Source of the DNA: Microvirga sp. 17 mud 1-3
GTDB lineage: Bacteria > Pseudomonadota > Alphaproteobacteria > Rhizobiales > Beijerinckiaceae
DNA length: 64,000 nucleotides
Direction: 5' to 3'
Assembly: GCF_003151255.1 (NCBI RefSeq)
Contig: NZ_CP029481.1
Coordinates: forward strand, 434,001 to 498,000
Positions within the stretch are counted from its first letter, which is position 1. Each line of letters starts with the position of its first letter. Below are positions 43,364 through 54,643 of the stretch, in pieces. A program made the position numbers and the translations under genes. The notes beneath the pieces were generated by a model. That model saw nothing but the letters and a program-made list of their open reading frames with translations. It had not been told where the DNA came from and did not search any database.

Positions 43364-43406
43364 CTTTCACGCAAGAGCGGTCCCCGCTTTTGCGCCCGAT
43401 GATCTA
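43364..43406 (-). repeat. Intergenic hairpin repeat starting at the cobW stop codon (copy 2)
   Basis: On the minus strand it runs from the TAG stop through CATCGGGCGCAAAAG, a CGGGGACCGC core and TCTTGCGTGAAAGG. CGCAAAAGCGG and CCGCTCTTGCG form a hairpin with one mismatch. It matches copy 1 at 9225-9267 both in sequence and in beginning exactly at a TAG stop codon. Confidence 0.75.
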
Positions 43407-44573
43407 GCGCCTCAGGGAGAGCGGATTGTCCGCAAGGGCCGCGGCATCGGGGGCGTCGACCTGCGGCTTGCCGAGAAAGGCGTTCCAGAGCGTCTCGACG
43501 GTTTCCTTCTCCAGGCCGTCGACGATGAAGACCAGCCGGCTGCGCCGGTCCTCGCTCGGCCAGCGCGGAAGGACGGCCGGGACATGGATCACATGCTGCA
43601 CCCCATGGATGACCACCGGGTGCTCGGGATCCTCGGCCAGGGCGACGAGACCCTTCACGCGCAGGAGCTTCGCGCCCTGCGTCGAGCGCAACAGGTCGAG
43701 AAACATGTCGAGGGTGCCCTGCCGGATCGGCTGGTCGCTGGCGAGGCAGAAGGCGCGGATCTGCTCATCATGCCGGTTCACGTCGTGATGGTGTGCGTGC
43801 CCATGTCCATGCCCATGCCCAAGCTCGCGTCCATGATGGTGCTCATGCCCGTGCTGATGGTCGTGGCTGCGCCGCTCGGCCTCCTCGATGGCCTCGGTCT
43901 TCAGCCATTCGGCTACGTCCGCGATCTTGCCGCCCAGGTCGAACAGGCCGCCTGACACGATGGCCTCGGCCCGTGCATCCGCCGGGAGGATCGTCGCGCC
44001 GGGATTGAGCCGGTGGAGACGGTCCTGCAGGTGCGCGAGGCTCTGCGCATCCGACACGAGATCCGCCTTCGTCAGGACGATCCGCTCCGCGACGGCGACC
44101 TGCCGCACAGCTTCTGCATGAGCATCAAGAGTGGCTTCCCCGTTCACCGCATCGACGACCGTGACCACGCCCTCGACCGCGTAACGCATCGAGAGATAGG
44201 GGTGATAGAGAACCGCATGCAGGATCGGGGCCGGATCCGCGAGGCCGGTCGTCTCGATGACGACCCGGCGGAACGGGGCGATTCGCCCATTGTCGCGCTT
44301 GCGTAAAAGATCCTCAAGGGTTGCGATGAGATCGCCCCGCACCGTGCAGCACAGGCAGCCGGCGGAGAGAAGCACCATGTTGTCATCTACCTTCTCGACC
44401 AGGAGATGGTCGAGGCCGATCTCGCCGAACTCGTTGATGATGACGACGCTGTCGCGGAGCGACTCATGCTGGAGCAGCCGATTCAGGAGCGTCGTCTTGC
44501 CGGCTCCGAGGAAGCCGGTGAGGACGGTCAGCGGGATCGGCGGCACCGGGCCGGTGGGGCGTGAATCCGACAT
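43404..44573 (-). CDS. CobW/COG0523 family GTP-binding metal chaperone
   Basis: A 389-residue G3E GTPase. Walker A is TGFLGAGKTTLLN near residue 20; the metal-binding CxCC-type motif is SAGCLCCTVRGDL; VVIETTGLADP and VLTKADLV are switch and base-recognition motifs. A long histidine-rich insert (about residues 236-263, repeated GHGH/HHH) precedes the CobW C-terminal domain. The family includes zinc metallochaperones (ZigA, ZNG1-like) and CobW. Three bases separate its start from the stop of the upstream DMT-transporter gene, so they are co-transcribed. No Zur box was recognised; zinc is likely but not proven. Confidence 0.92.
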   Translation of the reverse strand: MSDSRPTGPVPPIPLTVLTGFLGAGKTTLLNRLLQHESLRDSVVIINEFGEIGLDHLLVEKVDDNMVLLSAGCLCCTVRGDLIATLEDLLRKRDNGRIAPFRRVVIETTGLADPAPILHAVLYHPYLSMRYAVEGVVTVVDAVNGEATLDAHAEAVRQVAVAERIVLTKADLVSDAQSLAHLQDRLHRLNPGATILPADARAEAIVSGGLFDLGGKIADVAEWLKTEAIEEAERRSHDHQHGHEHHHGRELGHGHGHGHAHHHDVNRHDEQIRAFCLASDQPIRQGTLDMFLDLLRSTQGAKLLRVKGLVALAEDPEHPVVIHGVQHVIHVPAVLPRWPSEDRRSRLVFIVDGLEKETVETLWNAFLGKPQVDAPDAAALADNPLSLRR

Positions 44574-48153: not shown

Positions 48154-49290
48154 ATGTCCGAGGCGGCCGAAGCCCCCCGCTACCGCAACGTCCAGGTTGG
48201 CGACCCGGCCCCCTGGTTCCGCCAGAAGTCGACGAGCAATCCCGATTATGCCTTCGATACGGCGGCCGGCCGGTACATCGTGCTCTGCTTCTACGGAACG
48301 GCCTCCGACGAAGCGGGGCGGCGGGCGCTGGCTGCGGCCGAGGGGCCATGTCGCGACCTCTTCGACGACGACAGGATCGCGTTCTTCGGCGTGAGCATGG
48401 ATCCGGGCGATGCAGCGGAGGGACGAGCCCGCGAGAGCATGCCCGGAATCCGCCATTTCTGGGATTTCGACGGCACCGTTGGGCGCCTTTACGGGGCTCT
48501 TCCTGAAGGGGGTCAGACAGCGCCCATATCCATGCGCCGATTCTGGATCGTGCTTAACCCGACTCTGCGCGTGCGGGCCGTATTCCCATTCAGGCCGGAT
48601 GGCAGCGATTGCGAGGAGGTCGCGGCCTATCTGAGGAATCTCCCGCCGGTGCAATTCTTCGGCGGCTTCGAGATCCCCGCGCCCGTACTGGTGATCCCGG
48701 ATGTCTTCGAGCCGGCGCTCTGCCGCCACCTGATCGGCCTGTACGAAGCGCATGGCGGCGAGGAATCCGGCTATATGCGGGAGATCGAGGGCAAGACCGT
48801 GCCGGTCCACAATCATAGCCACAAGCGGCGCAGGGACTACATCATCGAGGATGACGCCCTGATCCGGCAGCTGCAGGAACGGGTAATCCGCCGCGTCAAT
48901 CCCGAGATCGCGAAGGTGCATTGCTTCCGCCCGACCCGGATGGAGCGGTACATCGTGTCCTGCTACGCGGCCGAGGAAGGGGGCCATTTTCGGGCGCACC
49001 GGGACAACACCACCCGCGGCACCGCCCATCGGCGCTTTGCCCTGTCCATCAATCTCAATTCGGGGTTCGAAGGCGGGGAGGTCCATTTTCCGGAATACGG
49101 CCCTCGCGGCTACAAGGCGCCGGCCGGCGGGGCGGTGGTGTTTTCCTGCGCGCTTCTCCATGCCGTGTCCCGGGTCACGGAAGGGCGGCGCTTCGCCTTT
49201 CTGCCCTTCCTCTATGACGAGGCTGCGGCCAAGGTCCGGGAGGCCAACAATGCCCATCTCGGCGAGGAGGTCGGGGCCTACAAGGCATAG
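48154..49290 (+). CDS. Redoxin-like / 2-oxoglutarate-Fe(II) oxygenase fusion
   Basis: A 378-residue two-domain protein. Residues about 15-165 resemble an AhpC/TSA-type redoxin (VGDPAPWFRQKST, YIVLCFYGTASDEAG, IAFFGVSMDP, HFWDFDGTVGRLYG, FWIVLNPTLRVRAVF), but the position of the peroxidatic cysteine is occupied by TASDEAG, so peroxidase activity is doubtful. Residues about 175-365 form a prolyl-4-hydroxylase-like domain with the iron ligands His282-x-Asp284 (GGHFRAHRDNTTRG) and His336 (LLHAVSRV), and Arg345/346 positioned to bind 2-oxoglutarate. Thus the oxygenase half looks active. Substrate unknown; peptide or small-molecule hydroxylation are both possible. It has its own promoter and operator-like repeat. 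Confidence 0.85.
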   Translation: MSEAAEAPRYRNVQVGDPAPWFRQKSTSNPDYAFDTAAGRYIVLCFYGTASDEAGRRALAAAEGPCRDLFDDDRIAFFGVSMDPGDAAEGRARESMPGIRHFWDFDGTVGRLYGALPEGGQTAPISMRRFWIVLNPTLRVRAVFPFRPDGSDCEEVAAYLRNLPPVQFFGGFEIPAPVLVIPDVFEPALCRHLIGLYEAHGGEESGYMREIEGKTVPVHNHSHKRRRDYIIEDDALIRQLQERVIRRVNPEIAKVHCFRPTRMERYIVSCYAAEEGGHFRAHRDNTTRGTAHRRFALSINLNSGFEGGEVHFPEYGPRGYKAPAGGAVVFSCALLHAVSRVTEGRRFAFLPFLYDEAAAKVREANNAHLGEEVGAYKA

Positions 49291-51528: not shown

Positions 51529-51660
51529 GGGAAATCCGGCTGCGCAGCTTCGACATGCGACGATCCCGTTTGCGCCTGGGATGCATGATTGTTAAGTAAC
51601 CCTCTTGTGATCACTGGCGCTTGTGACAATTCGAACAAATCCGACCGAAAGGCCCTGACG

Positions 51661-52647
51661 ATGGCGACTACCGAGACAACGCCCCTCCTGCCGGACATGA
51701 AGGTTTCCGTCCGTCAGGTTTTCGGCATCGATTCGGATCTGGAGGTCCCGGCCTTTTCCCAGAGCGAGGAGCATGTGCCGGATCTCGATCCGGATTATCT
51801 CTTCGACCGGGAGACGACCCTGGCCATTCTGGCGGGCTTTGCGCGCAACCGCCGCGTGATGATCACGGGCTATCACGGCACCGGTAAGTCCACCCATATC
51901 GAGCAGGTGGCGGCCCGGCTCAACTGGCCCTGCGTGCGCGTGAACCTCGACAGCCACGTGTCCCGTATCGATCTTGTCGGCAAGGACGCTATCGTTCTCC
52001 AGGAAGGCAAGCAGGTCACCGCCTTCCAGGACGGTATCCTGCCCTGGGCCCTGCAGCACAACGTGGCGCTCGTCTTCGACGAGTACGACGCGGGTCGGCC
52101 CGACGTCATGTTCGTGATCCAGCGCGTGCTGGAGCAGTCGGGCAAGCTCACGCTTCTCGACCAGAAGCGGGTCATCCGGCCTCACCCGGCCTTCCGCCTC
52201 TTCGCCACCGCCAACACGGTGGGCCTCGGCGACACCTCCGGGCTCTATCACGGCACGCAGCAGATCAACCAGGGTCAGATGGATCGCTGGTCCATTGTCA
52301 CAACCCTGAACTACCTGCCGCACGACAAGGAGGTGGACATCGTCCTCTCCAAGGCGAAGCATTATCAGGAAAGCCCCGAGGGCCGCGATATCGTCAACAA
52401 GATGGTGCGCGTGGCGGATCTCACCCGCAGCGCCTTCATGAACGGCGATCTCTCCACCGTCATGAGCCCGCGTACGGTCATCACCTGGGCCGAGAACGCC
52501 GACATCTTCGGCGATACGGGCTTCGCGTTCCGCGTCACCTTCCTCAATAAGTGCGACGAGCTCGAGCGGCCCCTGGTGGCGGAGTTCTATCAGCGCTCCT
52601 TCGGCAAGGAACTGCCGGAAAGCGCCGTGAACGTGGCGCTGTCGTAA
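51661..52647 (+). CDS. cobS: Cobaltochelatase subunit CobS (AAA+)
   Basis: A 328-residue AAA+ ATPase of the MoxR-like group. Walker A is [14 protein letters not shown], Walker B is [14 protein letters not shown], sensor-1 is [19 protein letters not shown]. CobS with CobT drives cobalt insertion by CobN in aerobic cobalamin synthesis. CobN is not in the window, and the other cob genes are absent, as is common in this order where cobST stand apart. ATG 51661 was chosen as [11 protein letters not shown]. Confidence 0.94.
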
Positions 52648-52747: not shown

Positions 52748-54643
52748 ATGTCCATCTCGAACCGCAAGCCCGGAGACAAGAAGGAAGCGCCGACGGAGCC
52801 GTTGAAGCGCTCCATCGCGGGCTGCATGAAGGCCATCGCGCGCAAGCAGGATCTGGAGGTGACCTTCGCGTCCGACCGCCCGGCCATGATGGGCGACAAG
52901 GTGCGCCTGCCGGAGCCGCCCCGTCGGCTGACCGCGCACGACGCCGCCATCCTGCGCGGCTATTCCGATTCCATGGCGCTGCGGCTCGCCTGCCACGACA
53001 CGGCCTTGCACCGGAGGCTGGCGCCCGATGGCCAGGCGGCCCGCGCGGTCTTCGACGCGGTCGAGCAGGCCCGGGTCGAGTCCATCGGCTCCCGCCGCAT
53101 GTCCGGTGTCGCCTCGAACATCACGGCGATGCTGGAGGACCGCTATCACCGCGGCGGCAAGTACGAGGAGATTACGGATCGGGCCGATGCGCCGATCGAG
53201 GATGCAGTGGCGCTGATGGTCCGGGAGCGCCTGACGGGCCAGCGGCCTCCGGCCGCGGCCGCGAAGATCGTCGATCTATGGCGCGACTTCATCGAGGATC
53301 GGGCCGGCGACGACCTGGACGCTCTTCTCAAGAACATCGAGAGCCAGCGCGACTTTGCCCGCTCGGTCCGCGACCTGCTCTCCTCCCTCGATATGGCCGA
53401 CGAGGCCTCCCTCGATTCCGAGGACGAGGATAACGAGGAGGAGAACGAGTCCGAGCAGGAGCAGCAGCAGGGCGAGGGCGAAAGCGAGCAGGAATCGCAG
53501 GGCGACCGAGCCGAGACCGAAATCAGCGAGGATTCCAGCGACGAGATGGAGGAGGGCGCGAGCGAGGACGCTGACGGCCCTTCCGGGGAGCTGCCGGACG
53601 AGGCCGATGAGGCGGATTCCGAGAACGCTTCCGAATCCTGGCGTCCGCCGTCCCGGCACAACGAGGGGCGCGGGCCGGATTACAAGGCTTTCAGTACGCG
53701 GTTCGACGAGGTGGTCCATGCGGAGGACCTCTGCGATTCGGACGAGCTGACGCGCCTGCGCGCCTATCTCGACAAGCAATTGGCCCATCTCCAGGGCGTG
53801 GTCGGCCGTCTGGCCAACCGCCTGCAGCGCCGCCTTCTGGCCCAGCAGAACCGGGCCTGGGAGTTCGATCTGGAGGAGGGCACTCTCGACCCGGCGCGGC
53901 TTCCGCGTGTGGTCATGGACCCATTCCAGCCCCTGACCTTCAAGCAGGAGCAGGACACCAATTTCCGCGACACGGTCGTGACCCTGCTCCTCGACAATTC
54001 GGGCTCCATGCGCGGGCGGCCGATCACGGTTGCGGCCACCTGCGCGGACATCCTGGCGCGCACCCTGGAGCGCTGCGGCGTCAAGGTCGAGATCCTGGGC
54101 TTCACCACCCGCGCCTGGAAGGGCGGGCAATCCCGGGAAGCCTGGCTGCAGAGCGGAAAGCCTGCCAATCCGGGGCGGCTCAACGACCTGCGCCATATCA
54201 TCTACAAGCCCGCCGACGCCCCATGGCGCCGGGCCCGCAAGAATCTCGGGCTGATGATGCGGGAAGGGCTCCTCAAGGAGAACATCGACGGCGAGGCGCT
54301 GGATTGGGCGCACAAGCGCCTGCTCGGGCGCCCCGAGCAGCGCCGGATCCTGATGGTGATCTCGGACGGCGCTCCGGTCGACGATTCCACTCTCTCGGTC
54401 AATCCGGGCAATTACCTCGAGCGGCACCTCCGGCACATCATCGAGGAAATCGAGACCCGCTCGCCCGTGGAGCTGATCGCCATCGGCATCGGCCACGACG
54501 TAACCCGCTATTATCGCCGCGCCGTCACCATCGTCGACGCGGAGGAGCTCGGCGGTGTCATGACCGAGAAGTTGGCGGAACTCTTCGAGGAGAACCCTCC
54601 TTCGGCCACGCGGGCGGCGCCCCGGCGCCGAGCCTTCGCCTGA
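52748..54643 (+). CDS. cobT: Cobaltochelatase subunit CobT
   Basis: A 631-residue partner of CobS. The N-terminal half ([40 protein letters not shown]) is helical. Residues about 215-300 are a highly acidic, Glu/Asp/Ser/Gln-rich segment typical of CobT. The C-terminal von Willebrand A domain has the MIDAS motif [13 protein letters not shown] and [19 protein letters not shown], ending near [20 protein letters not shown]. The start uses ATG 52748 ([15 protein letters not shown]) with AAGG upstream. Confidence 0.95.

Follow-up and report, generated by a model that had tools for sequence, protein, structure and literature searches.

The HxD...H triad and downstream Arg of the 2-oxoglutarate- and Fe(II)-dependent (2OG-Fe(II)) oxygenases bind Fe(II) and 2-oxoglutarate (2OG) and support hydroxylation of a substrate C-H bond, while peroxiredoxins are recognized by the active-site motif P-xxx-(T/S)-xx-C. 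In P4H proper, the residue that binds 2OG after the distal His is a Lys, in place of which PHD2, PLOD and PiuC have an Arg. To our knowledge, only few bacterial oxygenases of the prolyl/lysyl-hydroxylase type have a known substrate. Among the described relatives, the PKHD-type proteins PiuC, YbiX and CciO are found beside TonB receptors, according to passages of PMC12004947. The catalytic subunit of collagen P4H requires PDI, which has four thioredoxin-fold domains, for solubility and competence; PDI is a separate subunit, with its CGHC cysteines disulfide-bonded to the catalytic domain (passages of PMC9676403). Here we report on a gene of Microvirga sp. 17 mud 1-3 from a stretch of 64,000 nucleotides (contig NZ_CP029481.1, positions 434,001 to 498,000), referred to as the window, whose 378-residue product joins a peroxiredoxin fold devoid of its peroxidatic Cys to an intact 2OG-Fe(II) oxygenase. 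An earlier note, made from the sequence alone, had pointed out this composition, called it rare, and proposed that the redoxin half may have become a sensor or a substrate-docking module; our analysis confirms the observation and partly supports the interpretation. The features of the gene are as follows.

48154..49290, plus strand: whole gene of the pseudo-peroxiredoxin/2OG-Fe(II) oxygenase, 378 aa and stop, a single open frame
48184..48651, plus strand: peroxiredoxin-fold domain, residues ~11-166 (Pfam AhpC-TSA; profile versus PDB; structure search matching BCP/AhpE with residues 11-166 of the model)
48295..48318, plus strand: former active site with degenerate motif, residues 48-55 (aligned to a BCP-like gene; motif as generally known)
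48676..49263, plus strand: 2OG-Fe(II) oxygenase domain, residues ~175-370 (Pfam, profile, structure)
48997..49005, plus strand: iron ligands His282 and Asp284 (H-R-D), 109/109 and 109/109 members
49159..49161, plus strand: iron ligand His336, 108/109 members
49189..49191, plus strand: Arg346, proposed 2OG carboxylate binder judging by its position, 109/109 members

The presence of two folds was confirmed by Pfam, by profile searches of the PDB, by an AlphaFold model and by a structure search. In the whole protein the Pfam domain AhpC-TSA (residues 15-132) scores barely above its cut-off (26.1 vs 26), rising to 28.4 if the N-terminal half is scanned separately, and 2OG-FeII_Oxy_3 (residues 268-351) scores 40.4 against a cut-off of 27; across 69 family members the oxygenase model was found in 65 and AhpC-TSA in 50 (E <= 0.01). 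The profile of these 69 members, compared with the PDB, matches BCP- and AhpE-type peroxiredoxins with its N-terminal half and PiuC and LH3 with its C-terminal half. The AlphaFold model of the whole chain is confident (pLDDT 96.2, pTM 0.90), and the structure search carried out with it likewise identified BCP/AhpE peroxiredoxins as relatives of the N-terminal half and prolyl/lysyl hydroxylases as relatives of the C-terminal half, including the protein hydroxylases PHD2, algal P4H, Pseudomonas putida P4H with EF-Tu, and LH3. The N-terminal half thus scores as a thioredoxin fold, failing which the reading of the earlier note would have been refuted, by Pfam, profile and structure, and has the thioredoxin-like fold of peroxiredoxins, while the C-terminal half has the double-stranded beta-helix fold of the 2OG-Fe(II) oxygenase superfamily. 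No signal peptide was seen by eye in the protein, which suggests a cytosolic location.

The oxygenase site is intact, as claimed in the earlier note: among 109 distinct full-length members of the family, H282 is conserved in 109/109, D284 in 109/109, H336 in 108/109 and R346 in 109/109, and both Tyr271 and Asp228 are invariant (109/109 each). Arg346 is proposed to bind the 2OG carboxylate because it lies 10 residues downstream of the distal His; as this position is Arg in every member, the family differs here from P4H proper. In member L047 (the same gene as in L076) Leu replaces the distal iron-ligand His, with the HxD pair and the Arg intact. With the single protein as query, the best sequence match in the PDB is to the PiuC/YbiX/CciO group, which shares the oxygenase fold and the HxD...H triad with our protein but whose PDB chains are only 225-243 residues long and hence do not contain the redoxin half. 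The P. putida P4H, algal P4H and PHD2 show ~14-17% identity, and their chains of 184-225 residues align to the oxygenase half only.

The N-terminal half shares its fold and overall sequence pattern with the BCP/PrxQ and AhpE peroxiredoxins, from which it differs in the active site. Residues 48-55 read G-TAS-D-EA-G where the P-xxx-(T/S)-xx-C motif is expected, and an alignment with a BCP-like gene from one of the fetched loci places Gly55 at the position of the peroxidatic Cys. The earlier note was right that the catalytic Cys is missing, but this holds for nearly the whole family: Cys is absent from 106/109 members, which rules out a recent loss confined to this protein. No conserved residue stands in for it; among 79 members, with the genus counted as one row, position 55 is occupied by S (16), G (14), A (12), L (8), V (7), T (4) and others. 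Cys occurs in just three members (L098, L123 and L105), only the first of which has the full P-xxx-T-xx-C pattern. We searched for relatives of two of the three. Three of the four other members of the L098 family that were searched could be matched, and they have F, Y or R at the Cys site, whereas among 14 other relatives of L105 (L257-L270) the otherwise BCP-like stretch carries Ala in 12, Asn in one and Cys in one (L257, 89% identical); two more genomes with a match yielded no locus. For these two of the three Cys members, the relatives speak against a broad sub-lineage with a live Cys, and we reject it. The presumed peroxiredoxin active-site Arg, located through the alignment with one BCP-like gene, corresponds to Arg129 in our protein and is Arg in 47/109 members. 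Because the Cys is absent without a conserved substitute, peroxide chemistry at the former site appears unlikely, and the redoxin domain probably derives from a BCP-like peroxiredoxin that was retired early.

The family is far from rare. The gene is conserved at full length in Microvirga species, with 69-79% identity between our protein and those of other genomes of the genus, and occurs once in its own genome (a single contig of 4.4 Mb). Matches at E <= 0.001 were found in 37/61 genomes of relatives; long strong matches (E < 1e-80) are present in 31/37 genomes of the genus (in genome G024 the match is split over two frames) and in 1/24 genomes from the remaining families of this order. Any match at all is present in 96/289 genomes of the class, short hits to further PKHD-type oxygenases being counted among them, and 58/289 (the own genome included) match at E <= 1e-30; in the phylum, 19/398 genomes match at E <= 1e-15, all of them from the same class. 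These genome searches covered the phylum of the window, and a scan of all species employed exact peptide patterns, which detect close relatives only. The 109 sequences in our tree carry 35 numbered family labels of the class, so the statement that the two folds are rarely found together does not hold for the class. In this quick tree, which leaves many deeper forks open, the genus forms one clade, followed by a sequence from the same family and then by a mixed group of Rhizobiales and Rhodospirillales. Tandem copies were found in genome G583 and at least two paralogues in several genomes. Two members (L124 and L240) are split over two frames, and L271 has the redoxin half with no oxygenase match in the stretch examined; these may be frameshifts, assembly errors or pseudogenes. 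A phage origin was rejected, as there was no match in the phage collection; a collection of viral contigs yielded five loci, including a full-length gene on a 5 kb contig (L278) that is possibly host DNA. A structure search of viral models returned many oxygenases.

We conclude that the protein is no rare fusion but a typical representative of an alphaproteobacterial family with a wide distribution. The earlier note had reckoned with an architecture that is both common and already characterised: common in the class it is, but the family is apparently uncharacterised, since literature searches on the redoxin-oxygenase architecture and on related subjects, with most subscription journals outside their coverage, showed no publication on it among the papers listed. 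The words "peroxiredoxin", "thioredoxin" and "fused" do not appear in the main text of PMC4295552, which reviews protein hydroxylation in bacteria.

Both halves are under purifying selection: for 14 genes of the genus (91 pairs), the median ratio of non-synonymous to synonymous substitution rates (dN/dS) is 0.12 for the oxygenase and 0.17 for the redoxin half, with 85/91 pairs usable for the latter owing to saturation and large synonymous differences making these values rough. With about even confidence, and partly by analogy, we propose that the protein is a cytosolic Fe(II)/2OG-dependent enzyme similar to prolyl/lysyl hydroxylases (PiuC/LH3/P4H-like), in which the pseudo-peroxiredoxin half serves as a structural or substrate-docking module. 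The oxygenase half would turn over 2OG with Fe(II) and probably hydroxylate a protein or peptide residue; we infer a polypeptide substrate because protein hydroxylases make up the majority of the close structures (PiuC perhaps being an exception). The redox-dead redoxin half would stabilise the oxygenase and/or present the substrate to it, as PDI does for collagen P4H, and the docking role suggested in the earlier note would fit this analogy. In both systems a P4H-type catalytic domain is paired with thioredoxin-fold domains, but in our protein they form a single chain, the partner fold is of the peroxiredoxin type, and there is no cysteine motif resembling CGHC.

Several points weigh against this proposal. 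Conservation is lower in the redoxin than in the oxygenase half (mean column conservation 0.51 vs 0.68; 95 members). In at least two relatives the oxygenase stands alone (L103, 225 aa; L122/L274, ~212 aa), so some lineages dispense with the redoxin half. Outside the genus, no generally recurring neighbour and no conserved operon were found in the loci examined; genes in unannotated loci were called with a codon-usage script, which overlooked the gene of the family at three loci (L075, L083 and L108) and called none at all for L152, hence negative statements on neighbourhoods are approximate. Finally, passages of PMC12004947 suggest that the substrate of PiuC is not a protein but something that its TonB receptor carries, which makes a small-molecule substrate conceivable here as well.

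In that case the enzyme would act, like PiuC or CciO, on a metabolite or an iron ligand, and the redoxin half would be a mere structural appendage. We regard this as rather unlikely: the best of four NCBIfam models of the PRK05467 group (PiuC/YbiX) reaches 44.2 bits, far under its cut-off of 143, and Pfam detects no TonB receptor among six scanned neighbours of the window gene. A single TonB receptor query, which cannot detect all such receptors, placed one near the oxygenase in Niveispirillum only (L088 = L157 = L277), and it also matched 3/39 control regions (L177, L180 and L187).

A redox or peroxide sensor, in which the redoxin half would detect oxidation, either by means of a different Cys or through binding, and gate the oxygenase, seems very unlikely. 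The peroxiredoxin fold itself and the three members with Cys at the old site speak for it, as does a homologous pair of extracytoplasmic function (ECF) sigma and anti-sigma factor genes upstream of the oxygenase at four loci (L015, L088, L093 and L102, two of them from one family); the control regions contain sigma alone in two cases and anti-sigma in none. However, the variability of position 55 disfavours sensing through the old peroxidatic site, the complete motif of L098 is not shared by its three matched relatives, and the presumed active-site Arg position holds Arg in 47/109 members.

Most improbable of all, in our view, is that the oxygenase hydroxylates proteins of the type I secretion route, such as RTX (repeats in toxin) proteins, ahead of their export. 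An RTX gene lies immediately downstream on the same strand in genome G208 and its relative G724 (L135, L234), in L014 and in G713 (L232), and within 3 kb in L015, L004, L008 and L249, and Pfam verifies the RTX repeats of three neighbours. In G102 (L138) a full ABC-MFP-TolC set directly precedes the oxygenase, and in G580 (L144) one strand carries, in succession, the oxygenase gene, what by eye looks TauD-like, and ABC-MFP genes. Against this, RTX or type I secretion genes occur within ~10 kb on either side in 7/39 loci vs 2/39 control regions from the same genomes (Fisher p = 0.077), the immediate-neighbour pattern was spotted post hoc, RTX matches are common in these genomes (33/45), and no RTX gene is found near the window gene or at most of the Microvirga loci examined. 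The proximity is only a lead.

In the window, the gene order is D-Ala-D-Ala carboxypeptidase (minus strand), EamA transporter (plus), the oxygenase gene, thiolase (plus), BolA (minus), DnaJ-domain protein (plus) and CobS-like ATPase (plus); the ten further Microvirga loci that have long flanks share most of it, and it is not kept outside the genus. The CobS-like AAA ATPase (51589..52647, Pfam CobS_N) is followed at 52748..54643 by a long open reading frame with an acidic-rich stretch and a VWA-like end, resembling the cobaltochelatase CobT by eye, and by eye the product of 43404..44573 (minus strand) is a GTPase of the CobW/G3E type that contains a His-rich stretch and probably acts as a metal chaperone. 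Two annotated plasmid copies of the family are labelled merely "2OG-Fe(II) oxygenase". On plasmid pR132503 of Rhizobium leguminosarum the family gene adjoins genes for DoxX, a DNA-binding domain, DUF692 and DUF2282 (L276, 7992-12117), and genome G063 (L162/L095) has a similar set, making two places in all; we take the DUF692/DUF2282/DoxX set to be a metal-stress (bufferin-type) operon. Neighbours of two distant members (L112, 3955-4594; L113, 6684-7326) resemble, by eye, another kind of 2OG-Fe(II) oxygenase.

A bolder and distinctly unlikely form of our proposal is that the family represents the bacterial equivalent, within one chain, of the collagen hydroxylase/PDI pairing, in which a retired peroxiredoxin, as a redox-dead docking subunit, would deliver one particular polypeptide to the hydroxylase, in some lineages possibly an exported RTX protein; this would amount to a new protein hydroxylation in Alphaproteobacteria. 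A pseudo-enzyme domain maintained by selection beside an intact oxygenase offers a well-defined setting in which to ask what use a peroxiredoxin fold can have once it is redox-dead, and, because the members span 35 families and the two annotated plasmid copies carry a generic label, one assay would annotate many genes.
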